The notes under the pieces: generated by a model | Seen by the model: only the letters and a program-made list of their open reading frames with translations | Told to the model about the DNA's origin: nothing | The model's database searches: none | Made by a program: the position numbers and the translations under genes | From: Planctomycetota bacterium | GTDB lineage: Bacteria > Planctomycetota > Planctomycetia > Planctomycetales > Planctomycetaceae | DNA length: 49,021 nucleotides | Direction of reading: 5' to 3' | Assembly (NCBI GenBank): GCA_003670925.1 | Contig: QWQG01000187.1 | Location: 1-49,021, forward strand | In this document: piece after piece, positions 21,350-44,570 of the stretch | Layout: every line of letters starts with the position of its first letter | Numbering within the stretch: position 1 is the stretch's first letter

Positions 21350-23365
21350 TTACTCGACCGATTGATTCGGCCGTGACCATTTCACGCGGCCAAGCCAGAC
21401 TGTGCCGTCGGCTCCTTTGGGGTGCGGCTTATCGCTTACGAGGAACTCAGCGTCCGTGACCCATGATTCGTGAGGTGAAATACTCGCCGTGCCAAAGTTA
21501 CCCAGCATGACTCCGCGTTCAGGCAATAAGATCTGTTCCGTGCGCCGAAGCACTTGGAGCGTCTGCGGATCGACCTGCGCAATAAAAATGGGTGCGCGGT
21601 TCCGCATAATATGGTCGTTGTCCGCGCCACGCCTAGTGTAGCTCAGGAACAATCCTTCACCATGCGTCAGCCAATGCGTCTGCGTGTTGTAGCTCCCCAG
21701 ATCTTGCTCATCATCAAACGTCCATTTTTTGACGGGCGCGAAGTGCAGGCCATCATCGCTGGTCGTCACAAATGCAGCAGTGTCGTGTCGCAGAGTGAGA
21801 TAATATGTCTCTTGAAATCGCGTCAGGGATGGCTCGTAAAAACCACGTCCCCCGGGCGTGGTCAATTCATCCCCGTGCGTGATATATTTGAGTTTCAGTC
21901 CGTCGTAGGAACAGTGTAGAACAGTGGCAGTATAGTCGCTGCCATGCGGCCCTTGGATGTAGACCGGAATTAACAACGTCCCATCTGACTGCTCCAGCCA
22001 TTGAACACAACCTGGCGCGACGAGGAAAAATTTGCCATCGGTGTCCGGCATCTCGAGTAGTTTCCATGCGCTCCATTTGTCTAGAGTCGGATCGTACGTG
22101 GCGTAAGCACACTCGTGGGAGCGTGCCTTGTCGACCAATTGTTCTCCCTCCGGACTGTAACGCAACTTGACCCCGATCGCTAAAAGTTTTCCACTGTGTG
22201 TGAGCCACCCCGGCGTCACGTCGCAGACGGCAATTGTTTCGTTGTTTTCCCCCAATTGTGAAGCCAACTCCGGAATTTCTGTGGGGCCAGTCCAAGTCTC
22301 GCCAAGATCGTTGGTTCGCAGATAGTAAAGGCCTGAGTAATGGTCACTGACTCCGAGGTGCTTCTGAATCGTCATCACGACTGCTGGCCGACCATCCTTC
22401 CCGAGCGCTGGCAGAGCGGCAACACGAGGATGAAACCAGCAGGACTTGGCGTTGAGTTCCTTAAACACGGCACCGCTCCGCGCCTCGAATCGCAGAACTT
22501 TCGGGCTGGCCAACATCAACAGCGATTGTGCCGCACGAATTCGTGCATCGGGATGCGAATCATCGAGCATTATCGTCAACCGTGCACGCGCAGTTATAAC
22601 TCGTGCGTCACCCGCGAATGTGGCCGCATAGGTTCGGATGGCATTGTCTTGGCTAGTCAGGTTTTGTTGCAGTGCCTGCTGTCCGTCAGGATCGCCGAGG
22701 ATCGCAAGCGCGTGTTCGAAATTTGCTCGTGTTGCGGGATCGGGACAGCGACTCAACTGTGCCTGGAGCCGCGGGATGTCACTCCTGTCACCAATCTGCC
22801 CCAACACCCACGCGGCGATGGTGTAGTTCGAAGGATCACCGTCTTTCAACAAATCACGCACAGTTTGCAGCGGTTGCCCAACTCCGCCGTGCACAAGTGC
22901 ACCTGCTGCCATGAGTTTCAATTTGAGGTTGTCACTCTGAGCGTACGCACGTTGCATGGATTGGCCATCCCCGATGTCAAACACCTTAAAGAGGCTCTCG
23001 GCAGCATGCACGTGTCCGTAGTTGTTTTCTCCCGCGAGGATGTTGAGCATGATTTGCACGGCTGAACGATCCCCAGCACGGACAATCTCACGCGCGATGC
23101 CGCACAGATGCTGGTCGTCAGTTTCCGTTGTCAGTTGCGGGGTCAGGTACTCGACCACTTCGAGGCCCTGACCTCCCAGTGTCAGTCCTTCCGCCGCGTG
23201 CATGGACGGCCAAAATTCGTCGCCATGCAGTCCCCCGCGGAGGACACTCAAGCATTTCGCATGCGTTGCGGTGTCAAGCGAGATTCGAGGGTCGTCCGAG
23301 GCACTACTCCAGAGCCGCGGAAGCAGAGCTAGAATTGTGAAACAGATTCGTACAGTCGCATTCAT
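21350..23365 (-). CDS. Exported HEAT-repeat plus sialidase/BNR-like beta-propeller protein
   Basis: A 671-residue two-part protein. A signal peptide is followed by helical HEAT-like repeats over roughly residues 30-280 (for example GALVHGGVGQPLQTVRDLL and AWVLGQIGDRSDIPRLQAQL). The second half, about 300-670, is a beta-propeller of the sialidase/neuraminidase superfamily, with an Asp-box-like segment (LRTNDLGETWTGP), further blades such as YDPTLDKWSAWKL, and TTSDDGLHFAPVKKW. Catalytic residues were not aligned, so enzymatic activity is uncertain. The start has AGGGA 7 bases upstream. It lies 69 bases downstream of the SDR gene that closes the aldolase operon, so it may be part of the same transcript. 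The combination of helical scaffold and propeller is unusual. Confidence 0.8.
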   Translation of the reverse strand: MNATVRICFTILALLPRLWSSASDDPRISLDTATHAKCLSVLRGGLHGDEFWPSMHAAEGLTLGGQGLEVVEYLTPQLTTETDDQHLCGIAREIVRAGDRSAVQIMLNILAGENNYGHVHAAESLFKVFDIGDGQSMQRAYAQSDNLKLKLMAAGALVHGGVGQPLQTVRDLLKDGDPSNYTIAAWVLGQIGDRSDIPRLQAQLSRCPDPATRANFEHALAILGDPDGQQALQQNLTSQDNAIRTYAATFAGDARVITARARLTIMLDDSHPDARIRAAQSLLMLASPKVLRFEARSGAVFKELNAKSCWFHPRVAALPALGKDGRPAVVMTIQKHLGVSDHYSGLYYLRTNDLGETWTGPTEIPELASQLGENNETIAVCDVTPGWLTHSGKLLAIGVKLRYSPEGEQLVDKARSHECAYATYDPTLDKWSAWKLLEMPDTDGKFFLVAPGCVQWLEQSDGTLLIPVYIQGPHGSDYTATVLHCSYDGLKLKYITHGDELTTPGGRGFYEPSLTRFQETYYLTLRHDTAAFVTTSDDGLHFAPVKKWTFDDEQDLGSYNTQTHWLTHGEGLFLSYTRRGADNDHIMRNRAPIFIAQVDPQTLQVLRRTEQILLPERGVMLGNFGTASISPHESWVTDAEFLVSDKPHPKGADGTVWLGRVKWSRPNQSVE

Positions 23366-23434: not shown

Positions 23435-24229
23435 TCACCACGCCGTCCACCCACCGTCGACCAGCAGATTCTGACCGGTCACATAACTTCCCGCATCGCT
23501 GACCAGCAGCAGCAAAGGCCCCTTCAGTTCATGTGGTTCTCCCATGCGGCCTGCCGGACTTTTGACTTTTAGACGCTCCACCATCTGTGACGGAGCCTTC
23601 TCAGATGGAAACGGGCCGGGGCTGAGGCAATTCACCCGGACATTGTCCTTCGCCCAATAGACGGCCAGATGTCGCGTCATGTGCACAATCCCCCCCTTGA
23701 GCGTATGATATTGTACAGGACTCGCGGCACAGATTCCTTCGTAAGCATCGGGGTATGAACCGACCACTCCATACATCGACCCGATCATCACGATCGATCC
23801 CGGCACGCTTCGGCTGACAACATGATCACGCAAGCGACGCGCTAGCAGAAAATAACCGGTCGCATTCTGCAAATCCTTATTGAATGCCTCCGCCGTCACG
23901 TTTGTCAGATCGAGCGCGTGGCCCTGTTGACCATTATTGATTAAAATATCCACCCGTCCGGCCGCACTGACTGCCGCGTCAAAACCTTCGTTCAGGGACG
24001 ATTCGTTCAGATGATCAAGAGCCACAGCGCGGTGGATCACGCCCCACGGGGATGGCAATGCATCAGCCACACTTTGAGCTCGATTTTGCTCTCGACTTCC
24101 AATCACAACGAGGGCGCCAGCTTCGGCAAGTGCGCGTGACAACGCTTGGCCCAAATAGCCGGAACCGCCGGTGATGAGGGCGACGCGACCAGTCAAATCA
24201 AAAAGTTTTTGAATTGTAGGTTCCTGCAT
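23435..24229 (-). CDS. Short-chain dehydrogenase/reductase
   Basis: A 264-residue classical SDR that interconverts a hydroxyl and a carbonyl using NAD(P). Motifs: TGxxxGxG as ITGGSGYLGQ, NNGQ for the NNAG site, the catalytic Ser in MIGSMYG, YHTLK (Tyr-x-x-x-Lys), and a C-terminal GQNLLVDGGW. Its ATG shares a base with the stop of the upstream aminotransferase gene (TGATG), strong evidence for translational coupling; the longer reading frame (to 24286) overlaps that gene and is rejected. It is the last of the five tightly packed genes. Its substrate is likely a compound handled by the same operon. Confidence 0.92.
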   Translation of the reverse strand: MQEPTIQKLFDLTGRVALITGGSGYLGQALSRALAEAGALVVIGSREQNRAQSVADALPSPWGVIHRAVALDHLNESSLNEGFDAAVSAAGRVDILINNGQQGHALDLTNVTAEAFNKDLQNATGYFLLARRLRDHVVSRSVPGSIVMIGSMYGVVGSYPDAYEGICAASPVQYHTLKGGIVHMTRHLAVYWAKDNVRVNCLSPGPFPSEKAPSQMVERLKVKSPAGRMGEPHELKGPLLLLVSDAGSYVTGQNLLVDGGWTAW

Positions 24230-25152
24230 CACGTCATCTGCCGTTGAGCCTGTGCCACGATGTCCATGCCGACCAGTGCGCTCCATGCCGCCAGTAAGCG
24301 ATTCGTCACGGGACCAACTTTCCCGTCACCTACAGGCAAACCGTTAAACTTCGTCGCGGGCATGATGCAATATGGCGTGCTGGTGAAGAAGACCTCATCT
24401 GCCGTGTAGAAGTCGTAGACCTGCAGGCGAGCTTCCCGAATGGGGATACCGATCTTGTCGGCAAGTTCCAACGCAGTCCGGCGACTGATCCCAGCGAGAC
24501 AATTCTCAGTTGTCGGTGTCACGAGCTCGCCGTCTATGACCGCAAAAAGATTGCCGCCTTTGTTCTCGGAAACATAGCCGTCCACATCCAGAATGACACA
24601 TTGCGCGTCGGGGTCCATCAGCCGTGCTTCTGTATCCGCCAGAGTGTAAAAGAGCCGGCTGCGATTCTTAATGCGTGCATCTAGTGACTGAGCGGGTACA
24701 GCCCGACTCATCGATGTCACTGCATGACAGCCCTCGGTATAGTACCTAGCCCAACCACGCAGATCCATGTGATTAGTGAAAATCATGACAGTTGCGGCGT
24801 TGGTCTGCGATGAGCTGGGCCCGGGCTTCATTAAACCCCGTGAGATATTGTGGACGATCCAGCAGTCATCGTCGGAGCCCATCCTAGAAAGATTGACATC
24901 AAGGACATCTTGGGTGATCCTCTTCAGTTCACCCAGTGAGAGACCCGGATCAACACGACTGACTTTGAGCGACCGGTAGAGACGGGTGAGATGTTCGTCG
25001 AGTCGAAATGGCAGATGAAGAAACGTCCGCGTGGACTCGGTAAGGCTGTCGCCAAGCATGACCGCACTGTCAAAAATCGAAATCTTCGCCTCGGATTCCG
25101 GCACGATTTTTCCGGAAAGATAGACCTGGCGCTGTGGAACTGTGCTCTCCAT
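24229..25152 (-). CDS. Class IV aminotransferase (branched-chain/D-amino-acid type)
   Basis: A 307-residue PLP enzyme of fold type IV, which moves amino groups between keto acids and amino acids. The Schiff-base Lys is the one in DARIKNRSRLFYTLAD, followed by the cofactor phosphate and ring contacts in VSENKGGNLF and GISRRTALELA. These match branched-chain or D-alanine aminotransferases and aminodeoxychorismate lyase; the true activity cannot be separated by sequence alone. It is preceded by GGGAG before the ATG, lies 30 bases after the deacylase stop, and its stop overlaps the start of the next SDR. It belongs to the aldolase operon. Confidence 0.92.
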   Translation of the reverse strand: MESTVPQRQVYLSGKIVPESEAKISIFDSAVMLGDSLTESTRTFLHLPFRLDEHLTRLYRSLKVSRVDPGLSLGELKRITQDVLDVNLSRMGSDDDCWIVHNISRGLMKPGPSSSQTNAATVMIFTNHMDLRGWARYYTEGCHAVTSMSRAVPAQSLDARIKNRSRLFYTLADTEARLMDPDAQCVILDVDGYVSENKGGNLFAVIDGELVTPTTENCLAGISRRTALELADKIGIPIREARLQVYDFYTADEVFFTSTPYCIMPATKFNGLPVGDGKVGPVTNRLLAAWSALVGMDIVAQAQRQMT

Positions 25153-25182
25153 GGATTCTCTTTCACTCCCAATCGATGACGC

Positions 25183-26091
25183 TTACAACCCCAGCACAAC
25201 CCCGACCGATTCGCCCGCATGAACGCAGGGAAATGTTCGCAGTACGAGCACGATACCCGACTGAGTCGCCTTGACCACCACTGGCGGGCTGCCGTCGACG
25301 GGATAAATCGTACCGAGCGGATCGCTAGCATGTACAGCGTCGCCAAGCTTTACGTGCGTTTCGAAATGTCCCGTGACGGGAGACGGATTGCAAACCTGCA
25401 TATGGCCCGCCTGCGGATGAACATCTTCCACGACATGTGCGATTCGACTGCTGGGCCGAGCCCGTTCAAGCATCCCCAATTCAGACATCACATTCAGGCA
25501 GCCATCGACATAGGCTTCGATCCCCGCTGGATCACATCTGGCGGCACCTAGGTACTCGCAATAAATCGCCGGAATGTTTGCATCCCGCGCCACCGAGAGT
25601 GACCGCCCCTCAAGTGCGGCCGATGTTCCCCAGATAACGGGCAGATTGAAGGCCCGCGCCATCCGCCGTTGTGTTTCTAGCACACTCGGCGTCGGGTGCA
25701 GCATATACCCAGCCAGCGGATAGACGCACATCTCCGTGCCGCCAGTGTGCAGATCAATGTAGTAGTCAGCGCTGCGAATTGCTTCACTGAGGGCCCACGC
25801 GGTCTGTTCGGTGATGCTGCCATCTGAGCGACCTGGACAGGTCCGCGCAAGGTCTAATCCGTCGTCACCGCAGCGGTGGCCGCGGAGAAATGCCGATTCA
25901 TTAACGATTGGAATCAGCGTGATTGTCCCTCGAAAACTCGATTCAGCCCCAGCATGCTGCTCAAAGAAAATCACCAACCGGCGAATCGCCGCGATCGGCT
26001 CAAACTCGTCACCATGCACGCAACCAGTGATTAACAAGCGTGGACCATTGAGCTGCGAACGAAATTCAAATCCCCTGAGCCGCAGCGTCAT
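25183..26091 (-). CDS. Succinylglutamate desuccinylase/aspartoacylase-like deacylase
   Basis: A 302-residue zinc hydrolase of the AstE/AspA group, which removes acyl groups from N-acyl amino acids. The zinc ligands are seen in CVHGDEFEP (His-x-x-Glu) and the second His in YYIDLHTGG; IYCEYLG holds a candidate catalytic Glu. The C-terminal part (from about residue 220) is a beta-rich lid with VHPQAGHMQVCNPSPVTG. Its ATG overlaps the upstream SDR stop (ATGA). An extended reading frame to 26253 lies inside that SDR and is rejected. DoeB, the ectoine pathway deacetylase, is in this family, but nothing here specifically points to ectoine. The substrate is probably an N-acylated intermediate of the operon. 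Confidence 0.88.
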   Translation of the reverse strand: MTLRLRGFEFRSQLNGPRLLITGCVHGDEFEPIAAIRRLVIFFEQHAGAESSFRGTITLIPIVNESAFLRGHRCGDDGLDLARTCPGRSDGSITEQTAWALSEAIRSADYYIDLHTGGTEMCVYPLAGYMLHPTPSVLETQRRMARAFNLPVIWGTSAALEGRSLSVARDANIPAIYCEYLGAARCDPAGIEAYVDGCLNVMSELGMLERARPSSRIAHVVEDVHPQAGHMQVCNPSPVTGHFETHVKLGDAVHASDPLGTIYPVDGSPPVVVKATQSGIVLVLRTFPCVHAGESVGVVLGL

Positions 26092-26888
26092 TTTTTTACT
26101 TCCGTCAACGAAATAATCGATTCGGGGCGGCAATCCTTGAATCGGAAGCAACCGTCTACGGGCAACACGGTCCCCGTAATGTAGTCCGCCTCGTCTGACA
26201 CAAGAAACGCTGCCGCGTTGCCGATGTCTTCCGGTAATCCAAGCCGCCCCCAAGGTAACCGCCGCCCTTCGTTAGCGATCGTTTCTGCGGAAAAAGCGAG
26301 GTGTTCGCCTGGCGTATCGATCCAGCCTGGCTCGATCGCATTCACGTTGATGCGGTAAGGTGCCAGTTCAACCGCGATCGATCTCGTCAAATGATTGAGA
26401 CCAGCCTTGGCCGCTCCATACGCAGCACACAGACTAATGGGCATCTCTGCCTGCACGCTCGAGACAAACAAGATTTTCCCTCCACCACCGCGCGCAACCA
26501 TATGCCGACCCACCAGTTGGCTCATGTGAAAACCGCTTGTCAGCGTTCCTGTGATTGTGCGTTCAAATTCTTCAGGCGGATATTCAAGAAACGCGCAACG
26601 GCGACTGTAAGCCGGATTGCTTACAAGGATGTCGATTCTTGCAAACAAGGCGAGGGCTGCCGTCAATAACTCTTCACAGCCCAATCGAGAAAACACGTCT
26701 GCCTCGATCGCGTAACAGGTGCGTCCGAGTGACCGAATCTCAGAAACCGTCGCTTCAAGGTCCGCACTGCCGGGGCGATCATTGATGAGGATGTCCGCTC
26801 CGCAGCGTGCGAGTTGCACGGCGCAGCCTTTCCCTATTCCCCGACCACCTCCCGTGATAAGTGCGACTTTACCCGTTAGGTTTATCAC
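26088..26888 (-). CDS. Short-chain dehydrogenase/reductase (FabG-like)
   Basis: A 266-residue classical SDR with TGxxxGxG (ITGGGRGIGKG), an Asn-rich site in LVSNPAYS replacing NNAG, catalytic Ser in VSSVQAE, YGAAK and a C-terminal ITGTVLPVDGC. It starts with GTG at 26888, overlapping the TGA stop of the aldolase gene by four bases (GTGA), and its own stop overlaps the next ATG. This makes it the second of a coupled run. Its closest relatives include sugar-alcohol and hydroxy-acid dehydrogenases, but specificity cannot be stated. The protein ends with a longer C-terminal tail than usual. Confidence 0.92.
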   Translation of the reverse strand: MINLTGKVALITGGGRGIGKGCAVQLARCGADILINDRPGSADLEATVSEIRSLGRTCYAIEADVFSRLGCEELLTAALALFARIDILVSNPAYSRRCAFLEYPPEEFERTITGTLTSGFHMSQLVGRHMVARGGGGKILFVSSVQAEMPISLCAAYGAAKAGLNHLTRSIAVELAPYRINVNAIEPGWIDTPGEHLAFSAETIANEGRRLPWGRLGLPEDIGNAAAFLVSDEADYITGTVLPVDGCFRFKDCRPESIISLTEVKK

Positions 26889-27661
26889 GGCGACTCCTGT
26901 CCGCTGCTTTCAAACGCTGCAGCACAGCTTTTGAGCATATTCATGACGGCGCCGAATTCGCCACCGTGATTCAGTAATTGGCCTCCCTGTTGCTGGCGTT
27001 GTTTCATGATCTCTGGAGTCCCGACCGGCGCGCCCCATGCTTTGCCATGTCGCTTGCAGGCGTTCGCCACGCGGTCGTAAGCGGACTCCAATGTGCCTTG
27101 ACTCGGGTCTTGCTTCATCCGCAGTCCGAGATCACCTGGCCCTATGAATAAACCATCCACTCCCGGAACAGATGCAATTTCATCTATGTTCTGGATGGCT
27201 TGCAAAGTCTCTATTTGGACCACGAGAAACGTCTCTTCATTTGCTTCCCTGACGAAGGCATCGCCGTCACAGACGTAGAAATCAGCGTCCAGTCCCGCCC
27301 CGTCAAGCCCGCGGTCACCCACTGGAGGAAACTTCACCGCATCAACTAGCATGCGGGCTTTTTCAGCAGTGTTGACATGCGGAATCATTAACCCTGCCGC
27401 GCCATCCTCGAGATAGCGATAAAGTCGCGTTTTTTCCAGCGTCGCTGGCCGCACCATGATATCGATGTCATGCAGGTGCGCAAAAGCCAAGAGAGCCTGA
27501 ACATCACGATCAGAAAAATTTCGGTGTTCAAGGTCCAGCCAGATGCAGTCGAAGCCAAAGTGGGCTGCCTGCTTGACAAAGAAGGGCATGTAATGTCCAA
27601 GGCAACACATCCGGACCGTCTGGTTGTTACGAATCCGGGCGAGCGTCTTACTTTTTCTCAT
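26885..27661 (-). CDS. HpcH/HpaI-type aldolase
   Basis: A 258-residue TIM-barrel aldolase of the HpcH/HpaI (2-dehydro-3-deoxy-glucarate aldolase-like) family, which cleaves or builds 4-hydroxy-2-keto acids from pyruvate and an aldehyde with a divalent metal. Motifs: FDCIWLDLEHRNF at the start of the barrel, MVRPATLEKTRLYRYLEDGA, with the PHVNTAEKA stretch, the catalytic-type VQIETLQAI (acidic metal ligand), and DGLFIGPGDLGL with the second metal ligand Asp. The start at 27661 follows AGGA; a longer frame adds 18 residues with no family match. It is the first gene of the five-gene run and its stop overlaps the SDR start. The product may be a deoxy-keto sugar acid. Confidence 0.9.
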   Translation of the reverse strand: MRKSKTLARIRNNQTVRMCCLGHYMPFFVKQAAHFGFDCIWLDLEHRNFSDRDVQALLAFAHLHDIDIMVRPATLEKTRLYRYLEDGAAGLMIPHVNTAEKARMLVDAVKFPPVGDRGLDGAGLDADFYVCDGDAFVREANEETFLVVQIETLQAIQNIDEIASVPGVDGLFIGPGDLGLRMKQDPSQGTLESAYDRVANACKRHGKAWGAPVGTPEIMKQRQQQGGQLLNHGGEFGAVMNMLKSCAAAFESSGQESP

Positions 27662-27862: not shown

Positions 27863-29344
27863 TCACTGAATTTTTAGAAGAGATTTTCTTGTGCGGACAA
27901 ATAAAGCTCCCTCAGCGATCGCCGGAGTTCCAAGAATTGAGTCACCCAGATCATTGACGGCCAGTACCTCAAGCTCCGGAGAATCTTTAAGCACAACAAT
28001 CTTTCCATTTTCACTCGCAACAAAAATTTTCCCGTCGCCAGACACGGGAGATGCGAAGTAGTCGCCCGCATTTTCGATGCGGACAGGTCCGAAAAGAGGC
28101 TGGCCATTTCCGATCTGGAAGCAGGTGGCAATTCCGCCTGCCTTGATTAGCAGAATCCGGTTATTCACAACAAGAGGCGACACGATGTGATCGGTATGTT
28201 TTGTCGGATTTTTCCAGAGAACATGAGTCTGCGTCACGTCGCCTCGCCCTCCCCCCCGCACGGCAAGAACGAATTCATCTTCCGCGATCTCAGCATCAAA
28301 TGCCGCGCCGGCTGCGTTGCCAGGTGGCAGAAAAGCGAGATCCAACTCTCGGCCTTCAAGAACTCCATCCTGATTTAGATCTCCTCGTTCAAACGTCTTT
28401 TTGTAGAACGCTTCCGGTACAGGGCGTTTACCAAAAAACTTTTGCACCTCGTCTTTCGAGACTTTGTGATCACTATTCCCTGTTTCGGCCTGATCAATGG
28501 ACGCCAGCCACTGACTAGCAATTCCTTTACTTTGCAACGAAACGTAAACGATGCCGTCCCGACTAACCGGAGTTGTCTTGATGTTGCGGAGCAATGTCCG
28601 CGCCTGCCACAACCGCTTGCCAGTCTTCGGTTCGTACCCAATCAGCAACCCGGTACCGGCGACAACGATCTCGTCACCGCTGGAAGTTTCGCAGATCACA
28701 GGGTGTGAATAGTTGACCGCCATGTCATTCCGGTCATCCTTCCACAGCAAATCCCCTGTGTGCTTGTCGAACGCGTACAACGCTGGATGAAGGTCGTCGT
28801 CCTGACAAAAGAGCACCAGATCCTTGTACAGTACGGGCGACATGCCCGCGCCCCATTTGAAGACGAAATACGGCACCGGAAGTTCTTTTCTCCAAACATC
28901 CGCACCAGTCTTTGCGTCAAGCCCCACCATGCCGAGTGTTGAGAAGTAGAAATAGACGCGTTCGGAATCTGCCGCAGGTGTCGTCCCCGCATGACTGTTC
29001 GTTTCATGAATCTCGTCAACATCACCAATTGGCCATGAGCGCATCCAAAGCTGTTGGCCCGAGACTGCGTCGAAGGCGAACAGTCCGACCGTCTTATCGT
29101 CAATCATGGCTGATGTGAAAACTCGCCCCGCAGCAACCACAGGACAGCCAATCCCGTCACCCAGTTTGACAGACCACGTGACGTGCTCAGTCGCTGAAAA
29201 GTGCACTGGAAGAGGGGAATTTGTCGCTGATACTCCAGAGCAATTTGGGCCACGAAATTGCGGCCAATCCTCGGCTAAAAGTGTAGCAATCGTCATCACC
29301 ATTGATGCTATGACTACTGAAGCTATGCATGCGATGCGTGTCAT
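27863..29344 (-). CDS. PQQ-like beta-propeller protein with EF-hand, exported
   Basis: A 493-residue exported protein of the outer-membrane assembly/PQQ-like repeat type common in planctomycetes. A hydrophobic signal (IACIASVVIASMVMTIATLL) ends before AEDWPQFRGPNCSG, the usual beginning of such proteins. Tryptophan-docking blades follow, for example GLFAFDAVSGQQLWMRSW, VGLDAKTGADVWRKELP and YAFDKHTGDLLWKDD. Near residues 310-330 a calcium-binding EF-hand-like loop, DLNQDGVLEGRE, interrupts the propeller. The start at 29344 has GGAG upstream; the ORF continues to 29530 but without a signal. It lies about 200 bases upstream of the aldolase operon on the same strand. PQQ binding is not certain. 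Confidence 0.88.
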   Translation of the reverse strand: MTRIACIASVVIASMVMTIATLLAEDWPQFRGPNCSGVSATNSPLPVHFSATEHVTWSVKLGDGIGCPVVAAGRVFTSAMIDDKTVGLFAFDAVSGQQLWMRSWPIGDVDEIHETNSHAGTTPAADSERVYFYFSTLGMVGLDAKTGADVWRKELPVPYFVFKWGAGMSPVLYKDLVLFCQDDDLHPALYAFDKHTGDLLWKDDRNDMAVNYSHPVICETSSGDEIVVAGTGLLIGYEPKTGKRLWQARTLLRNIKTTPVSRDGIVYVSLQSKGIASQWLASIDQAETGNSDHKVSKDEVQKFFGKRPVPEAFYKKTFERGDLNQDGVLEGRELDLAFLPPGNAAGAAFDAEIAEDEFVLAVRGGGRGDVTQTHVLWKNPTKHTDHIVSPLVVNNRILLIKAGGIATCFQIGNGQPLFGPVRIENAGDYFASPVSGDGKIFVASENGKIVVLKDSPELEVLAVNDLGDSILGTPAIAEGALFVRTRKSLLKIQ

Positions 29345-29681
29345 CAATTTGCTCCGCGGAGAAGGACTGTGACAATGGGCCGTGCCGATTGTGACAACAT
29401 TAACACTGTGTGTGAAGCGGCGCGAAACGTGCCCACATAAATACTTTGGGATATTAGTTGTGGCGTTCGATGATTTTCTAGACGCCTCAAGGGTTCCAAC
29501 GCTGCTCGCAGTCGGCTTGTAACCCGTCAATTATCGAATCGTGCTGGGCTACATGACCGGCATGCTACTGCCAACTGTGACCTACCTAGGCGCACCTAGG
29601 TAATGTTCAATCATGGAGTGCCCTAGGATCCGGGAGGGCACTTCCGTTACAAGCCTTGGCGATCGTCTGAGTGACCGGTCG
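29345..29681. other. Intergenic region of 337 bases
   Basis: Between the PQQ-propeller gene and the end of an unknown-family gene on the same strand; it should hold the promoter of the PQQ-propeller gene. It contains the hairpin at 29617-29642. No coding character was seen beyond the non-used upstream reading frame of the PQQ gene. Confidence 0.45.
29617..29642. terminator. Possible hairpin downstream of an unknown-family gene
   Basis: A perfect 8-base stem AGTGCCCT / AGGGCACT with a 10-base loop, located about 40 bases after the stop codon of the minus-strand gene 29682-30581. There is no T-run on either side, so termination is possible only by a factor-dependent or weak mechanism. It could equally be a protein site. 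Confidence 0.35.
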
Positions 29682-30752: not shown

Positions 30753-31790
30753 ATGCAAAAGATCGGCGTGGGCATCATTGGTAGCGGCTTTATGGGGCTG
30801 ACTTACAGTGAGGTTGTGGCCCGGCATGCGACGGACTGTCGCTTGGTCGCCATCACTGGCGGAAAACGGGCAAATCAGCTGGCGGCAGACTACGAAGTTG
30901 CGGCGGAAGTTTCCGTCGAGGCGTTGCTCGCGCGGGACGACATCCATGCCGTCGTGCTGGCAACACCGGATCTGGATCGTCTAAATCTCACGAGAATGGC
31001 GGCAGCCGCAGGTAAGCACGTCCTTGCTGAAAAGCCCATGGCTCCCACTGTTGCTGAATGTGATCAGATGATTTCCGCGTGCGCTGACGCGAAAGTCAAC
31101 CTCGCCGTGGTGAAAACGGAACGATTTCGAAAGATCACCCAGAAGGCGAAGGAGTTGATTGACGACGGAACACTCGGGCCGCTCCACATGCTTCGCACTG
31201 TGTCCGCGTTTCCATTGCCACTTGCGAAGCAACTGTTTGAAGAGCGTGCATGGATGGCTGATCCGCGCGGTGGTGGCCTGTTCATGGGAATGGCGTCTCA
31301 CAACACCGACTTTCTGCGGTGGTTGACGGGGCGTAATGCCGTCAAAGTTTTTGCACAGGCTACAACCTACAGCGACATCCCCGGTCCACCACTTTCCGTG
31401 ATGGCCCAGATTGTGTTCGAAGACAATATTATGGCCCAGATGTGGATTACTGGAGAACTTCCGAATCCGAGCCTGCCCAGCAGTGAAGTTCGCTTCCAAG
31501 TCTTCGGCCGCGATGCCATGCTCGATCTTGAAAACTTTGAATACCTTGACGTCGGCAAAGGCGAGAACTGGGAACGCATCTATACACCCGAACGATTCGA
31601 CTACCTGAAGGAACCGAAATCACCGATTCGCCTGTATCCACACATCGGCGTGATTCAGGAATTTATTGCCAGTATTCAAGAACAACGTCCACCCCGCATC
31701 GGCGGTGCAGAAGGTCGTGCTGCGGTTGAAATTTGCGAGGCATGCCTGATTTCCGCGAAGACCGGTCAGGCAGTTACGTTACCGTTTTGA
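30753..31790 (+). CDS. Gfo/Idh/MocA family oxidoreductase
   Basis: A 345-residue cytoplasmic NAD(P)-dependent oxidoreductase acting on a sugar-like or cyclitol-like alcohol. The Rossmann motif GIIGSGFMG and the following acidic/basic stretch (ITGGKRANQLA) are at the N-terminus, and HVLAEKPMAPT contains the catalytic-type Lys. The second domain has GGGLFMGMASHNTDFLRWL, where the His and Asp are the usual catalytic pair. AAGG lies 8 bases before the ATG. It heads a plus-strand group with a transporter, a PLP enzyme and a subtilisin-like protein. The same family occurs twice more nearby on other strands and arms. Confidence 0.94.
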   Translation: MQKIGVGIIGSGFMGLTYSEVVARHATDCRLVAITGGKRANQLAADYEVAAEVSVEALLARDDIHAVVLATPDLDRLNLTRMAAAAGKHVLAEKPMAPTVAECDQMISACADAKVNLAVVKTERFRKITQKAKELIDDGTLGPLHMLRTVSAFPLPLAKQLFEERAWMADPRGGGLFMGMASHNTDFLRWLTGRNAVKVFAQATTYSDIPGPPLSVMAQIVFEDNIMAQMWITGELPNPSLPSSEVRFQVFGRDAMLDLENFEYLDVGKGENWERIYTPERFDYLKEPKSPIRLYPHIGVIQEFIASIQEQRPPRIGGAEGRAAVEICEACLISAKTGQAVTLPF

Positions 31791-31913
31791 CCCGAGCCGG
31801 AACGATGATCTCCCCAGCCCCTTAGCAGCATTCGCTAAAATTCCGAACCTCGCTGAATTGGTTCGAGTTCAGCCAGAATAAGTTTCGGACGTCTTTCCGC
31901 CGAAGAGGACTTG

Positions 31914-33452
31914 ATGAGCGCGTTGTCCACACACGAATCTCCAGCAACCTGTCCTCTCGCATGGCCAGATCAGCGACGGAATCTCATGCTGTTTGCTGTC
32001 TGCACGGGTACCCAATATCTGGCCGCTCCTGTGCTTTACGTGGGCATCACTCAGGCGTCGTTGTGTGATCGTCTTGGAGCAGATGCACGCACGTCAAACT
32101 TGCCAGGGACACTATTTTTTGCCATGACCGCAATGCCGGCTTTCTTCGCGTGGTTGTCCCCGCGCGTGTCATCTCTAAAACGGAATCTTAGCCTGCTGTA
32201 TGGCACGTCAGCTCTGATGCTAGCTCTGCTCGCGATATCATTAGCGCTACCCGTTTCGAATCAGTTCAAGTTAGCCATGATTGTGCTGCAGGGTGGCGTT
32301 TCAGGTGCTGTCATGCCGGCGGCCATTGCGCTGTTGTGGGAGGCGATGGGACGCGGATCGGATGAATCACGCCGCGGCCTAGCTTTGAGCATGGCATTCG
32401 GCGCTGGCCCGCTGCTGGCGGTCGTCGGTTCATTCGGCCAGACCGCGTTGCTGGGAGGCGATTTATTTGGACTCCACTTTGCCGGCCTCGCATATCCGCA
32501 AAGTTTCATCATTCTCTTTGCCGCTGGTGTGCCGGTGATGGCTGTCGCTGCCATCTTTTCGCAGTATTTTGTCATGGCGCCTGTTGAGCGGGAACAGGAA
32601 CGCGAGCCCGTCTCTGCCGTCATCGGCCTGCTGATCGGAATTCCACTGATGCTGGTTTCCGTCGCGTTACTGCAACTTGCAGCACTTCCCGCGGTTTCTG
32701 CCGTCGAGTCCACCTCGTCAGTTCCCCGAGTGGAAAGTTTTCTACGAGCTCTCGGTACGCTGTCTGCCATCGGTTCCGCCGTGGCGTTCATTTACCATTT
32801 TCGCTCGGTTCTCGAGGAGCGAATCCTGCTGTCCGCGACACTCGTGACCATTCTGGTGTACGCCGGAAACGTCATTCCATCAAACATGAACTTGTATTCA
32901 CTAGAGGCTTTGGGTGATCTTCCTGAAAAATATGCTGGCGTGCAGAACATGCTTCGCTTTAGCTTCAAAGTTGTCGCCGGCGCAGTTCTCGGATGGGTCT
33001 TGACACGTACAAACCCGAAAGTCGGCATCCTTGCTACAGCATCTATCTTTCTCCTTGCTCAAGTCTGGGCGATGTGCGTCACGGGGCCATGGTATCTGGT
33101 CGCGTTCGGGATTCACGGAGCTGGCGAATTGGTGGGTGTGTATGCCCCAAACTACATCGTGTCTGCATCTCGCGGTGATCAATTGCGGCGCAACATGGCT
33201 TTCGTCACCATGCTGATGGTACCTGCCGCACCGGCTGGATATTTGTACGGGGCGATTGTGGATGGAGTCAAACAGGCTGGGTGGACGGCCTTCGGGATGA
33301 ACAGTACGGCACTCGGTTTTCGCCTCAGCTTTTTTGTGTGCGGGCTCCTAATTTTAAGCGGCATCTTGCTGGCAATTTTTCTGTTACCGGCGAGGCCGAC
33401 ACCACGCGTGAGAGGCTCGAGACGATCCCCAAATGCATTAGGCGATTCATGA
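31914..33452 (+). CDS. Major facilitator superfamily transporter
   Basis: A 512-residue inner-membrane protein with about 12 hydrophobic segments, consistent with the MFS transporter fold. Segments include the first near residues 27-45 (LMLFAVCTGTQYLAAPVLYV), MPAFFAWLSPRVSSLKRN, where the conserved-loop basic residues sit after helix 2, and VVAGAVLGWVLTRTNPKVGI in the second half. GAGG precedes ATG 31914 (a TTG at 31911 is the alternative). It lies 123 bases after the Gfo/Idh gene and 147 before the PLP enzyme. It would import or export the small molecule handled by the adjacent enzymes. A folate-biopterin or sugar type cannot be decided by eye. Confidence 0.87.
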   Translation: MSALSTHESPATCPLAWPDQRRNLMLFAVCTGTQYLAAPVLYVGITQASLCDRLGADARTSNLPGTLFFAMTAMPAFFAWLSPRVSSLKRNLSLLYGTSALMLALLAISLALPVSNQFKLAMIVLQGGVSGAVMPAAIALLWEAMGRGSDESRRGLALSMAFGAGPLLAVVGSFGQTALLGGDLFGLHFAGLAYPQSFIILFAAGVPVMAVAAIFSQYFVMAPVEREQEREPVSAVIGLLIGIPLMLVSVALLQLAALPAVSAVESTSSVPRVESFLRALGTLSAIGSAVAFIYHFRSVLEERILLSATLVTILVYAGNVIPSNMNLYSLEALGDLPEKYAGVQNMLRFSFKVVAGAVLGWVLTRTNPKVGILATASIFLLAQVWAMCVTGPWYLVAFGIHGAGELVGVYAPNYIVSASRGDQLRRNMAFVTMLMVPAAPAGYLYGAIVDGVKQAGWTAFGMNSTALGFRLSFFVCGLLILSGILLAIFLLPARPTPRVRGSRRSPNALGDS

Positions 33453-33599: not shown

Positions 33600-34709
33600 A
33601 TGAATTCAGGTATTTGGCGATTTTCAAAATGGCTCGATCCAGTACCAACCGCAGCACGCATGACGCTCGGCGAGGGAAGCACGCCGATTGTTCGATCTCG
33701 ACGCCTAGGACTTTCAGTTGGCCTAAAAAACCTGTTCTTTAAGTTGGAATTTGCGAACCCTAGCGGGTCGTACAAGGATCGTTTCGCCTGTGCGGCAATC
33801 TCAGACATGGTCGCATGTGGTAAGACTGAGTGCATCGCCACGTCGAGTGGAAATACGGGCGCGGCGCTTGCTGCGTATTGTGCGCTGGCAGGAATCTCGT
33901 GCGAGATCGCTATTGTGGAGGGCGCACCCGAAGGAAAGCTGAAGCAAATGTTGGCTTATGGTGCCAAACTGTTTCGCGTCCGCGGATTTGGAGTTGATAG
34001 CCTGTTGTCCCAGCAGGTCGTCGAGTGCCTTATAAAATTAAGTGCCCGGCCGCAGGCGCAGATGCAGATCAGCGCGTTCGCTTATAGCCCGGTTGGCATG
34101 AGCGGCGTAAAAAGCCTAAGTCATGAACTTGTTGAGCAAGCAACGGCCATCGATCGCAGAGCATGGGATCACGTCTTCTGTATGGCGGGCGGCGGCGGCC
34201 TGACGTTGGCCGTCTCACTGGGTTTCGAACAACTTTACGCGGCAGGGGAATTGTCCGTATTGCCGCGCGTCGAATGCGTGCAACCGGAGGGTAACAATAC
34301 CATTTCAGGTCCGTTGCGGGCTGGACTGAATCTGGCGCAAGCAGTGCAATGTTCCAGCCGGATTAGTGGCCTGCAGGTGCCTCAGGTCATTGATGGCAAT
34401 GAAGTGATCGCCGCCTGTCGCCGAAACGGTGGTAACGGACATCTTGTCGAAGATCACTTCGTCTGGGAAACTCAATCACGTCTCGCGCGCGAAGAAGGAA
34501 TCTTCGCTGAACCTGCAGGCTCAACTGCCGTCGCCGGCGCGTTACAGGCAGCAAGAGCAGGAGATCTCGATCCAGAGGCGAACATCGTCTGCCTGATCAC
34601 TGGCTCGGCGTTCAAAGATCCTCCATCATTGGACGCCATGGTGCAGCACACATCAGCGCCGATGATCGAGCTTCAGGATCTCCAACGCCGGGTGTCCGAG
34701 ACTTGTTGA
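33600..34709 (+). CDS. Threonine synthase/dehydratase-like PLP enzyme
   Basis: A 369-residue fold-type-II PLP enzyme. LGEGSTPIVRS is the usual beginning of threonine synthase-like proteins; the PLP Lys is in NPSGSYKDRF; SSGNTGAALAAYCALAG binds the cofactor ring; GGGGLTLAVSLG is the phosphate-binding loop; and the tail is FAEPAGSTAVAGALQAA. The family makes threonine from phosphohomoserine or eliminates/replaces groups at the beta position of amino acids, with 2-keto acid products in the dehydratase group. Primary housekeeping ThrC is possible but its location here suggests a specialised role. AGGAG sits about 8 bases before the ATG. Confidence 0.88.
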   Translation: MNSGIWRFSKWLDPVPTAARMTLGEGSTPIVRSRRLGLSVGLKNLFFKLEFANPSGSYKDRFACAAISDMVACGKTECIATSSGNTGAALAAYCALAGISCEIAIVEGAPEGKLKQMLAYGAKLFRVRGFGVDSLLSQQVVECLIKLSARPQAQMQISAFAYSPVGMSGVKSLSHELVEQATAIDRRAWDHVFCMAGGGGLTLAVSLGFEQLYAAGELSVLPRVECVQPEGNNTISGPLRAGLNLAQAVQCSSRISGLQVPQVIDGNEVIAACRRNGGNGHLVEDHFVWETQSRLAREEGIFAEPAGSTAVAGALQAARAGDLDPEANIVCLITGSAFKDPPSLDAMVQHTSAPMIELQDLQRRVSETC

Positions 34710-39523: not shown

Positions 39524-40546
39524 ATGAGTGATCCGCACCAAGTCTTAATTGTTGGCGTCGGGTCCATTGGTGAACGCCATTTGCGTTGTTTTCAGGCAAC
39601 GGGGCGTGCCGAGGTGTCATTCGTTGAGACCAATGCTGCGCTCCGAGTCGCGATTTCCGAACGCTATGGTGTTTGTGGTTTTGCGGATCTTGACGCAGCG
39701 TTGGCTGATCAGGGCATTGGGCGACATCCAGCGGCTCGACGCATCACAGCAGCCGTCATCGCCACGCCCGCAAATCGACATCTAGAGATTGCTATCCGAC
39801 TAGCAGAAGCCGGCATCCATCTCCTGATTGAAAAGCCGCTCAGTACCAGCATCGACGGTGCCGACCTGCTGACACAAATTGTCCGCCAGCGTGGCCTCGT
39901 GGTTGGCGTGGCTTATGTTCTGCGCTGTTATCCCGCATTGGGAGCGATGCGGGCCGCCGTGTTGAGCGGGCAGTTCGGAAAGCCCGTCGAGATTGTGGCC
40001 GTCTGTGGTCAGCATTTTCCTACATACCGGCCCGCTTATCGTAACACGTACTACGTAGATCGTGCCACGGGAGGGGGCGCAATCCAAGATGCGCTGACGC
40101 ATGTTTTGAATGCCGGTGAATGGCTAGTCGGCCCGATCGAACGACTCGTCGCGGATGCCGCTCACCGCGTACTTGAGGGCGTGACCGTTGAAGACACGGC
40201 CCATGTGTTGACACGTCACGGAGATGTGCTTGGAAGCTATAGTCTGAACCAGCATCAAGCACCAAACGAAGTCACGGTCACCATTATCTGTCAAAGTGGC
40301 ACAGTCCGCTGGGAAACGCATGCTCAACGCTGGCGCTGGATGATCCACCCTGACGAGCTTTGGCATGACGAACCGCACGAAACTCAGCCCCGCGACGCCG
40401 CATTCGTGACGCAAGCCAATCGATTTCTCGATGCGGTTGCAGGCCACACCTCGTTGCTTTGCAGTCTGGCTGAGGGCGTGCAAACATTGCGCGTCAATCT
40501 GGCCGCACTGGCGAGTATTGAACAGGGATGCTGGCAAACACTTTAA
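39524..40546 (+). CDS. Gfo/Idh/MocA family oxidoreductase
   Basis: A 340-residue cytoplasmic NAD(P)-dependent oxidoreductase. GVGSIGERHLRCF is the Rossmann motif, HLLIEKPLSTS has the EKP Lys, and GGGAIQDALTHVLNAGEWL contains the second-domain acid/histidine pair. It heads the last plus-strand arm; the amidohydrolase/aminotransferase fusion begins 21 bases after its stop, so they are co-transcribed. This type is common beside aminotransferases in amino-sugar pathways, where it makes the keto group to be aminated; that is the simplest reading here. Confidence 0.94.
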   Translation: MSDPHQVLIVGVGSIGERHLRCFQATGRAEVSFVETNAALRVAISERYGVCGFADLDAALADQGIGRHPAARRITAAVIATPANRHLEIAIRLAEAGIHLLIEKPLSTSIDGADLLTQIVRQRGLVVGVAYVLRCYPALGAMRAAVLSGQFGKPVEIVAVCGQHFPTYRPAYRNTYYVDRATGGGAIQDALTHVLNAGEWLVGPIERLVADAAHRVLEGVTVEDTAHVLTRHGDVLGSYSLNQHQAPNEVTVTIICQSGTVRWETHAQRWRWMIHPDELWHDEPHETQPRDAAFVTQANRFLDAVAGHTSLLCSLAEGVQTLRVNLAALASIEQGCWQTL

Positions 40547-40567
40547 TCACTTTTGAGGATACTCCAT

Positions 40568-42931
40568 ATGTCGCCGTCTTTGAGAGACTTCTCGGCACAC
40601 GATCAGCAAATTTGGGATGAGGAACTCCAAGACTTCGTCCCAGATCGAGTGTTCGACGCTCATATTCACATGTTCCATCCTGAGCATGTGAAGGCAACTT
40701 CGCCGTCGTCGGCGACCCCGTGGAGTTTCGCGGACTTCACCACGTTGCAGGAATGGGCCGCGCGATTATACCCCGGTCGCGAAACACATTTTCTGGTACT
40801 GGGGACGCCGACGCTCGGAATTGACGTCGATTCTCACAACCACTGGTGCATCGAGCAGGTCAGACGAGATCCCCAATCGCGAATGAATCGCTTGGTGACT
40901 CCGGCGTGTCGCGTGCAGGACATTGCTGCCGACATCCGCGAGCGAGGGTTTAGCGGACTTAAACCGTACCGTTTGTTCTCCACCACGGGGGATATCGCAC
41001 AATGCCGCATTCACGAGTTTTTGCCCCACGCGCAATTGGAGTTAGCGAACGACATGGGACTGTGGGTCACGCTGCACCTGTCTCGTTTCCACGGTTGTGC
41101 TGACGATTTAAACCTAAACGATCTGCGGGATTTCACCAGCCGTCGTTACCCTCACATCAAATGGATTCTCGCCCATTGCGCTCGGAGTTTCACCTACTGG
41201 CCGATCCGTAAGGCCATCGACCAGCTCCGCGATCTGCCGAATATCTGGTACGACGTTTCGGCAGTGACTGACGTACGCCCGCTCATTACTTTGTTTTCAC
41301 GTGAAGATCGCCGCCGGATTTTGTATGGATCAGACGGCATTGACGCGACGTATTTTCATGGCCAGTACGCCGCAATGGGACGAGCTTGGCAGTCTGTAGA
41401 TAGCGGTCGCTTAAATCTGCAATTTCCCCATTGCGATGGCCGCCCAATTTTAGCGATCTATGAGCAATTACTCGCGATGAAGCATGCGGCAGAGATTGCC
41501 CAATGGTCTGCAGACGACATTCAGAATCTTTTTTGGAGAAACGCGGCCTCCGCGTTTCGTGTTCAGTTCGGTAATGAAGATCCTACCACTGTGTCGGCGA
41601 TCGGTGAGCAGACTCAGACGATGTACGCCCGAGCCAAACAGCTTATTCCTGGCGGAACGCAATTGCTCAGTAAGCGGCCGGAGATGTTCGCTCCCGGACT
41701 CTGGCCAGCCTACGCGCGTGAGGCACATGGTTGTGAAGTAACAGACCTTGATGGCCGTCGCTTCATCGATATGACTACATCGGGAATCGGTTCGTGTCTC
41801 CTGGGATACGCCGATCCGGATGTCACGGCAGCCGTTCAGCAACGTATTGCAAGGGGCTCAATGTCGACACTTAACGCCGCTGCGGAAGTTGAGCTAGCTG
41901 AACTCCTGATTGAACTGCACCCGTGGGCCGAGCAGGTGCGCTATGCGCGTTCTGGCGGTGAGTCCATGGCAATCGCCGTCCGTATCGCGCGAGCGGCAAC
42001 CGGTCGTGATAAGATTGCATTCTGTGGTTATCACGGATGGTCTGATTGGTATCTAGCGGCAAATGTGAATCCGGCTGGTGCTGCCGACAGTCTACAGGGA
42101 CACCTGTTACCGGGCTTGGCACCGGCAGGCGTACCGCGTGGTCTTGCCGGAACCGCATTGCCTTTTACTTACAACCGATTACATGAATTGGAGCAGATCG
42201 TAACCCAACACGGCAACGAACTTGCGGCGGTGGTGATGGAACCAACACGTTCGACCGATCCTGATACCGGCTTTCTCGAGGGCGTCCGCAAACTTTGTGA
42301 CCGTTGCGGTGCAGCACTGGTCTTTGACGAAATTTCGTCCGGTTGGCGAATGCATCTCGGCGGTGCCCATTTGAAATACGGTGTGCTGCCGGACGTTGCT
42401 GTGTTTGCCAAAGCCATCGGCAATGGTCACCCGATGGCCGCAATCATCGGCCGTCGTTGCATCATGGACGCTGCTCAAACGTCATTCATTAGCAGTACCT
42501 ACTGGACCGAGGGTGTTGGTCCGACTGCTGCGGTGGCGACCATCCGGAAACTGCGAGAAGTAAACATCGCAGCTCACACCAGTCACATCGGTGGCCTGAT
42601 GCGCGATGGCTGGAAGAGTCTCGGGCAACGACTGGGGGTGCCAGTCAAAGTCTCTGGTCACCCGGCCCTGCTGCATTTAAGTTTCGACCACGAACAAGCG
42701 GCTGCCCTAGGAACGCTACTGACAGCGCGGATGCTTGAACAAGGCTATCTTACCGGCAGCGGCTTCTACCCGAGCTTCGCCCATAAAAAACACCATCTCA
42801 GCCAATACCTGACTGCTATCGAACCGGTCTTCGTTGAACTTGCTGATGCCATCCGTCTTGGCGACGTGTTGCGCCGCCTACAGTCTATCGACGTTCCTGT
42901 ACGCCACACTGGCTTTGCCAGATTGACGTGA
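40568..42931 (+). CDS. Amidohydrolase fused to class III aminotransferase
   Basis: A 787-residue protein made of two enzymes. Residues 1-335 are an amidohydrolase-2-type TIM barrel: HxH at His32/His34 (FDAHIHMFHPE), GLKPYRLFSTTGD, WILAHCARS with His203, and LYGSDGIDATYF with Asp256, as in lactonases and ACMSD-like decarboxylases. After a linker, from about 352 (MYARAKQLIPGGTQLLS) to the end is a full-length class III aminotransferase like glutamate-1-semialdehyde aminomutase: SGGESMAIAVRIARAATG, VVMEPTRSTDP, ALVFDEISSGWRM, and PLP Lys615 in VFAKAIGNGHPM. The start follows GAGGAT; a TTG at 40553 is the alternative. The frame is continuous, with no stop between the halves. Two steps on one intermediate, or channelling, are plausible. 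Confidence 0.93.
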   Translation: MSPSLRDFSAHDQQIWDEELQDFVPDRVFDAHIHMFHPEHVKATSPSSATPWSFADFTTLQEWAARLYPGRETHFLVLGTPTLGIDVDSHNHWCIEQVRRDPQSRMNRLVTPACRVQDIAADIRERGFSGLKPYRLFSTTGDIAQCRIHEFLPHAQLELANDMGLWVTLHLSRFHGCADDLNLNDLRDFTSRRYPHIKWILAHCARSFTYWPIRKAIDQLRDLPNIWYDVSAVTDVRPLITLFSREDRRRILYGSDGIDATYFHGQYAAMGRAWQSVDSGRLNLQFPHCDGRPILAIYEQLLAMKHAAEIAQWSADDIQNLFWRNAASAFRVQFGNEDPTTVSAIGEQTQTMYARAKQLIPGGTQLLSKRPEMFAPGLWPAYAREAHGCEVTDLDGRRFIDMTTSGIGSCLLGYADPDVTAAVQQRIARGSMSTLNAAAEVELAELLIELHPWAEQVRYARSGGESMAIAVRIARAATGRDKIAFCGYHGWSDWYLAANVNPAGAADSLQGHLLPGLAPAGVPRGLAGTALPFTYNRLHELEQIVTQHGNELAAVVMEPTRSTDPDTGFLEGVRKLCDRCGAALVFDEISSGWRMHLGGAHLKYGVLPDVAVFAKAIGNGHPMAAIIGRRCIMDAAQTSFISSTYWTEGVGPTAAVATIRKLREVNIAAHTSHIGGLMRDGWKSLGQRLGVPVKVSGHPALLHLSFDHEQAAALGTLLTARMLEQGYLTGSGFYPSFAHKKHHLSQYLTAIEPVFVELADAIRLGDVLRRLQSIDVPVRHTGFARLT

Positions 42932-42940
42932 CGATCTTGA

Positions 42941-43504
42941 TCAGATTGCTCCTGCAGTTCCAGAATTGCAGGGTTCGCCACTCACGTTATCGATCGCACT
43001 GAGGTGTAGCCAGCAATCGGCCCATTGGCCAAAGTTTTCTTCGACGCTAATGCGAAGTCTTGTCAGACCGTGCTGGTGATTCAGCTTCAGCCGTGCAATG
43101 AGCGCATGCCCAATCCACTGGGCAATCAGTTCTGCGGTCGTGTTTTCAATTGGCAAGATCACACAGTCCTCGCGTGGAAACACCCAACGGCGGTCTTCAA
43201 ATCGAGCTGTGACTTCACGCTCATCGTCGGAAACTTCGAGCTGAATCATGGGGTGCCGTGCAGGCAAAAGTACCCGGTGATCCAGTTCCTGCACGAGCAA
43301 CTGAAGTCCATCGCGTAGAGCAATAAAATCAAACACATAGTGATTCTCGTCCAGTGGCCCTTGGATTTCTGCTTCGACACGCCAATTATGGCCGTGAATC
43401 CGCTCACAAATGCTGCGATTGAATGTAATAAAATGTGCGGCGCTGAAGACCAGCGTGTCCTTTGTGACGCGAACGCTCCAAGTATCGATCGAAGATATTG
43501 TCAT
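42941..43504 (-). CDS. 6-pyruvoyl-tetrahydropterin synthase-like protein
   Basis: A 187-residue pterin-family enzyme. The zinc and catalytic residues of the PTPS/QueD fold are seen: FSAAHF (first zinc His), ICERIHGHNW (catalytic-type Cys, then two His), YVFDF and LDHR in the middle, ENTTAELIAQWI, and VEENFGQWADCWL with the catalytic Glu. It is longer than QueD (about 120-140 residues) by a loop rich in basic and acidic residues. Its ATG shares one base with the upstream stop (TGATG), so it is translationally coupled to the CitG-like gene. Possible roles are in queuosine or in a modified folate/methanopterin cofactor; the pairing favours the latter. Confidence 0.9.
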   Translation of the reverse strand: MTISSIDTWSVRVTKDTLVFSAAHFITFNRSICERIHGHNWRVEAEIQGPLDENHYVFDFIALRDGLQLLVQELDHRVLLPARHPMIQLEVSDDEREVTARFEDRRWVFPREDCVILPIENTTAELIAQWIGHALIARLKLNHQHGLTRLRISVEENFGQWADCWLHLSAIDNVSGEPCNSGTAGAI

Positions 43505-44400: not shown

Positions 44401-44570
44401 TTGTTTTTCTGAGGCGAAGTCGTTCCGCCACTCGTATTCTTCGGCCCGAACGAGCAACCAAGACGCTAGGTTGTAGTTGCCGTCAGCCCAGTGTCATGCA
44501 TCCCTTGTGTCCACACCAGACCATCTGCGGCGGCGCAGTCCCCGAGGGACACACGTCCCGAAATCTAATG

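Follow-up and report, generated by a model that had tools for sequence, protein, structure and literature searches.

A conserved, uncharacterised five-gene operon of a Planctomycetaceae bacterium, possibly involved in the breakdown of N-acylated amino sugars or their acids

Non-phosphorylative sugar-acid pathways use HpaI-type aldolases, such as those for 2-keto-3-deoxy-rhamnonate and 2-dehydro-3-deoxyglucarate. Hydroxypyruvate is described as a nucleophile for HpaI-family aldolases in work referenced in PMC7610986. The ong cluster of Pseudoalteromonas prydzensis encodes an oxidative chitin (GlcNAc1A) pathway (PMC9537276, PMC12017989) in which the SSS transporter OngIT, the de-N-acetylase OngB and the fold-III PLP deaminase OngC lead to KDG (PMC9537276); OngB is a D-aminoacylase-like deacetylase (PMC9537276, PMC12017989). 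Here, we describe an operon in a 49,021-nucleotide stretch (the window) of a Planctomycetota genome assembly of 5.78 Mb in 259 contigs (99.5% complete), the closest named relatives of which are Planctomycetaceae MAGs, including uncultured Schlesneria and Fuerstiella. The operon is real and its pathway is conserved and uncharacterised; a literature search for this gene combination found nothing relevant.

The initial annotation described five tightly spaced genes for an aldolase, a short-chain dehydrogenase (SDR), a deacylase, an aminotransferase and a second SDR. ORF and Pfam checks bear out the genes, their families and all four junctions, all on the minus strand (Table 1; Pfam names HpcH_HpaI, SDR, AstE_AspA_cat, Aminotran_4 and SDR, each well over cut-off). 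The aldolase and SDR1 genes share a GTGA overlap (26888-26885) and SDR1 and AstE an ATGA overlap (26091-26088); a gap of 30 bases separates AstE (start 26091, end 25183) from AT4 (start 25152), and AT4 and SDR2 meet at TGATG (24231-24227). SDR2 begins at an ATG (24229) that relatives keep, and not at 24286, where a longer ORF opens. What the overlaps suggest is coupled translation, with the best support in the HpaI-SDR1-AstE part; the fixed product ratio once drawn from them does not follow. Promoter and terminator scans gave no signal above shuffles.

Table 1. Genes of the operon, its companions and possible further members, with positions in the window
Feature	Position	Strand	Basis
HpcH/HpaI class II 2-keto acid aldolase	26885..27661	-	PF03328, 98 bits (cut-off 25)
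SDR1, classical short-chain dehydrogenase, hexonate-dehydrogenase-like	26088..26888	-	PF13561, 184 bits
AstE/AspA-type zinc deacylase, DoeB-like fold, own subfamily	25183..26091	-	PF24827, 85 bits (cut-off 25)
AT4, class-IV PLP aminotransferase	24229..25152	-	PF01063, 132 bits (cut-off 28.5)
SDR2, classical SDR, gluconate 5-dehydrogenase-like	23435..24229	-	PF13561, 123 bits
PQQ/BamB-like beta-propeller protein, upstream of aldolase	27863..29389	-	PF13360, gene order and junctions
Secreted-looking HEAT-repeat protein, C-terminal propeller-like domain, downstream	21350..23365	-	PF13646
Gfo1, Gfo/Idh/MocA oxidoreductase, divergent, possible part	30753-31790	+	
MFS-like transporter, divergent, possible part	31911-33452	+	
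Threonine-synthase-like PALP, divergent, possible part	33600-34709	+	
Gfo3, Gfo/Idh oxidoreductase, possible part	39524-40546	+	
Amidohydrolase_2/class-III aminotransferase fusion, next to Gfo3, possible part	40553-42931	+	

All five products score below the cut-offs of those NCBIfam models that have a known reaction, and their sequences by themselves therefore do not name any step. The catalytic residues are intact. The His, Arg, Glu and Asp of the aldolase align with those of PDB 3qz6; its nearest NCBIfam model, HpaI 4-hydroxy-2-oxoheptanedioate aldolase (TIGR02311), was rejected as an assignment at 120 against 368.8 bits. Some relatives seem to have stop codons inside HpaI, but the cases checked are C-terminal read-through. 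SDR1, which reaches no NCBIfam cut-off, has 2-deoxy-D-gluconate 3-dehydrogenase as its best PDB match, and SDR2 is 80-89% identical among the species with the block; the substrate of an SDR cannot be read from its sequence. In AstE, H26, E29, H115 and E179 are invariant in all orthologues aligned; in this family these positions are the zinc ligands (HxxE...H) and the catalytic Glu. The catalytic Lys of AT4 is aligned with that of 5mqz, and the cut-offs for BCAT and D-amino acid transaminase were not reached.

The best fold match of the AstE AlphaFold model (pLDDT 80) is DoeB (6twm), an enzyme that takes acetyl off an amino acid. This would suit an ectoine/hydroxyectoine-like route for an N-acyl amino acid or cyclic compatible solute, in which an M24 enzyme would open the ring, AstE would deacetylate, PALP or an aminotransferase would remove nitrogen, and the aldolase and dehydrogenases would finish. 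AstE shares its fold and its zinc and catalytic residues with the DoeA/DoeB (EutD/EutE) system, M24 genes occur in four AstE clusters (L153, L160, L180 and L186) and PALP enzymes are frequent beside AstE. However, AstE scores 79 bits against the DoeB/EutE equivalog cut-off of 402.7 (TIGR02994), no DoeA/EutD in the genome exceeds its cut-off (best 47 of 613 bits), the PALP is threonine-synthase-like with an EutB match of 53 of 413 bits, and the neighbours are different, the Doe pathway having no place for carbohydrate transport, sugar dehydrogenases or an aldolase. A DoeB/EutE assignment and membership in ectoine degradation were therefore rejected, and an ectoine-like route is unlikely. Nan sialic acid catabolism was also discarded, as NanE is absent from the genome (no PF04131 match). 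The earlier statement that the set matches neither pathway thus holds after DoeB, DoeA and NanE tests that all failed.

Conservation was examined in 170 genomes of the same family, which share ancestry, so that the Fisher p values overstate the evidence; physical linkage nonetheless agrees, SDR1 and AstE lying less than 10 kb apart in 41 of the 56 genomes compared. All five genes are present in 24 genomes and none in 45, with individual counts of 70 (HpaI), 89 (SDR1), 94 (SDR2), 102 (AstE) and 46 (AT4). Most pairs give p values of 1e-7 to 1e-17, reaching about 1e-17 for both HpaI-SDR1 and SDR1-AstE and 2e-11 for AT4 and AstE (45 of the 46 AT4 genomes also have AstE), with weaker values for HpaI-AT4 (0.008) and SDR1-AT4 (0.06). 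In gene neighbourhoods centred on AstE and on the aminotransferase, the block is kept in eight other species of three genera, that of the window and two more (g1, g35, g28): six have the same order (G157, G161, G166, G168, G096, G091), and in G118 and G164 SDR2 and the HEAT gene are inverted. The four-base HpaI/SDR1 overlap and the ATGA of SDR1/AstE are each kept in six of the eight, more than chance would give; between AstE and AT4, and between AT4 and SDR2, the spacing ranges from an overlap to roughly 350 bases.

Scattering of the orthologues had been named as a finding that would speak against a joint pathway. As regards gene order it is partly seen: G047 and G053 each hold HpaI-SDR1-AstE and AT4-SDR2 as intact modules at two different loci, G158 and G146 have them on different contigs (where a contig break is possible), and many other genomes have HpaI-SDR1-AstE or SDR1-AstE with no adjacent aminotransferase. 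HpaI-SDR1-AstE is the most conserved part and AT4-SDR2 a second module. Co-occurrence withstands this scattering. A grouping of separate promiscuous enzymes with no single pathway would fit the split or partial block of most family members and the size and versatility of the families, but hardly the p values for most pairs, even from genomes that are not phylogenetically independent, or the recurrence of the same gene pairs in Verrucomicrobiota, and we regard it as very unlikely. The five families very probably form one pathway, as first proposed, and not five unrelated ones.

The operon is not closed at five genes, since the flanking PQQ-propeller and HEAT genes travel along with it and belong to a real, larger unit. 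The PQQ gene lies upstream of HpaI in many loci, with a four-base overlap in L032 and L104, and the HEAT half of the downstream protein recurs in many loci, accompanying the operon as well as the clusters of Verrucomicrobiota. The C-terminal half is not always present and is matched only in L102, L107, L033, L034 and duplicate contig copies. Two HAAE motifs and an Arg-Glu pair are invariant in 18 relatives, and the AlphaFold model (pLDDT 94) is most like designed HEAT proteins, with a fainter likeness to deoxyhypusine hydroxylase and CpcE/CpcF lyase; the protein may be a metal-binding enzyme. The order PALP, Gfo1, unknown gene, PQQ is kept in G157, but the PALP, about 6 kb from the operon, was not upheld as a secure member because its relatives at 70-91% are also present where the genome has no AstE. 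In other genomes a 50-61% PALP subfamily adjoins AstE. Homologues of Gfo3 (nearest PDB entry 3q2k, of the sugar-nucleotide dehydrogenase type) and of the fusion protein lie within or adjoin the operon in relatives, those of the fusion in L103, L060, L179 and L180. A CitG-family protein (ATP:dephospho-CoA triphosphoribosyl transferase) is encoded near this pair (43504-44457, minus strand).

In relatives as distant as Verrucomicrobiota the set also includes a Gfo/Idh oxidoreductase, a sodium-solute symporter and further PLP enzymes. In L180 (Verrucomicrobiales) the order is AmT3, PQQ, a GH67N-domain protein, an SSS-like transporter (by eye), HEAT, HpaI, SDR1, AstE, PALP, an M24 gene on the opposite strand, Gfo3 and SDR2; L182 (Gemmataceae) carries an XylR-type regulator, HpaIb, SDR2, AstE, an SSS symporter, a GH67N-domain protein, PQQ, SDR1, PALP, Gfo3 and HEAT-BNR. 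The set thus crosses phyla, and the operon is part of a larger conserved gene set that is apparently undescribed. Across 76 AstE loci, the PLP enzyme within two genes is PALP in 24, AT4 in five, D-ser_dehydrat-type in three and PALP plus AT4 in one; the other 43 have no nitrogen-removing PLP enzyme at that distance. Three unrelated nitrogen-removing families hence occupy one position beside AstE, not strictly exclusively. The order D-ser_dehydrat-like, AstE, HpaIb, Gfo3 recurs in L181, L188, L197 and L200, the first protein bearing in the last three a TAT-like signal that is absent from AstE. In another branch MlrC-like M81 genes stand directly upstream of AstE (L186 8371-9849; L163 4694-6229; L183 7282-8790); a different SDR comes next, joined in L186 and L163 by PALP. 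PhyH-family dioxygenases recur near AstE or AmT3 (L032 15111-15908; L179 12215-13066).

The aldolase near AstE is HpaI, HpaIb or, in L068 only, an N-acetylneuraminate-lyase-like DHDPS-family protein. This NanA-like replacement, the BNR_2 domain on the L182 HEAT protein, the SSS symporters and the lack of NanE, which makes a non-Nan route necessary, would agree with catabolism of a nonulosonic (sialic-like) acid: sialidase-like release outside the cell, aldolase cleavage to pyruvate and an N-acyl hexosamine, then oxidation to the N-acyl hexosaminate, deacylation and deamination. Yet the C-terminal domain of the window's HEAT protein matches no BNR family and, by sequence, no PDB sialidase, and many relatives have the HEAT half without it, so that a sialidase role for this gene was rejected; moreover, HpaI enzymes are not known to act as Neu5Ac lyases. 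Such a route appears quite improbable.

We favour the reading that the operon supplies the central cytoplasmic enzymes of an oxidative, non-phosphorylating catabolic pathway for an N-acylated amino sugar or its acid, to which we assign a probability of roughly 45%. That the substrate derives from a sugar is suggested by the SSS symporters, Gfo/Idh proteins, hexonate-type SDRs, XylR regulator and GH67N proteins; candidates among the N-acylated 2-amino sugars and their acids include N-acetyl-hexosaminates and N-acetyl-hexosaminuronates. We infer the substrate, enzyme activities, step order and direction as follows. After import, the sugar would be oxidised by Gfo3 or one of the SDRs to an N-acyl 2-amino acid, from which the AstE-like zinc enzyme would take the acyl group; a PLP enzyme would remove the nitrogen to give a 2-oxo acid, by AT4 transamination in this operon and by a PALP or D-serine-dehydratase-like enzyme in its place in relatives; and HpaI would cleave the 2-oxo acid to pyruvate or hydroxypyruvate and an aldehyde, the SDRs adjusting hydroxyl and keto groups or reducing products. 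Since a 2-acetamido aldonate is an N-acyl alpha-amino acid, an AspA/DoeB-type enzyme could act on it, and acyl removal, amine removal and retro-aldol cleavage to pyruvate or hydroxypyruvate and an aldehyde form a coherent sequence. The first reading of the genes, as a pathway of aldol, redox, N-deacylation and transamination chemistry, is partly supported, and is refined in that other PLP enzymes replace AT4 beside the deacylase elsewhere.

A pathway that makes a modified amino polyol, or a precursor of a surface sugar, would use the same enzymes in the other direction, as the aldolase, transaminase and reductases can run synthetically, and the nearby class-III aminotransferase fusion resembles aminoglycoside aminotransferases. 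The importers, secreted partners, XylR-type regulator of relatives and exchange of the aldolase for a NanA-like one argue for breakdown, which the deacylase also fits, and nucleotidyl- or glycosyltransferases are not consistently linked in relatives; we think a biosynthetic role improbable. Several points count against the amino-sugar reading itself: no close relative has a known activity; some AstE clusters contain M24 and MlrC-type M81 proteins, a hint that the substrate may instead resemble an amide or a peptide and a suggestion of an additional amide step; the PLP families are not strictly exclusive, the window itself having a PALP, and most AstE loci have none within two genes; the TAT-like signals of the D-ser_dehydrat-like proteins are not shared by AstE; and SDR sequences do not reveal specificity.

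The proposed pathway would resemble Ong in its step logic of SSS import, de-N-acetylation of a 2-acetamido aldonate and PLP-dependent nitrogen removal to a 2-keto-3-deoxy acid, and some operon relatives carry a fold-III D-ser_dehydrat enzyme (such proteins occur in L032, L104 and L181; none was seen in the window operon). It differs in its deacylase, OngB being a D-aminoacylase-like amidohydrolase, whereas Pfam and the model fold place the operon deacylase in the AstE/AspA type, so that an OngB-type assignment was rejected for it; in its more frequent use of an aminotransferase or PALP; in its direct HpaI aldolase; and in its extra SDRs and Gfo/Idh proteins, with GH20 and KdgK not seen in the operon. 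With the non-phosphorylative sugar-acid pathways it has an SDR and an HpaI-type aldolase in common, but a deacylase and a PLP enzyme are present and a sugar-acid dehydratase is not. The host genome contains nagB, so the standard glucosamine-6-phosphate route probably coexists with the operon pathway. Tentatively, and with some doubt, we suggest a new amino sugar acid pathway (for N-acetyl-hexosaminate or -hexosaminuronate) of Planctomycetota and Verrucomicrobiota, convergent with Ong, in which an AstE-type enzyme de-N-acylates the carbohydrate and PLP enzymes are interchangeable. Both phyla are major degraders of complex glycans, and their use of amino sugar acids is poorly known. If the suggestion is true, a family of amino acid deacylases (AstE/AspA) would have been turned to carbohydrates, a parallel to OngB and the D-aminoacylase family, and the module would offer a gene set that is ready for testing and whose genomic signature spans the two phyla.
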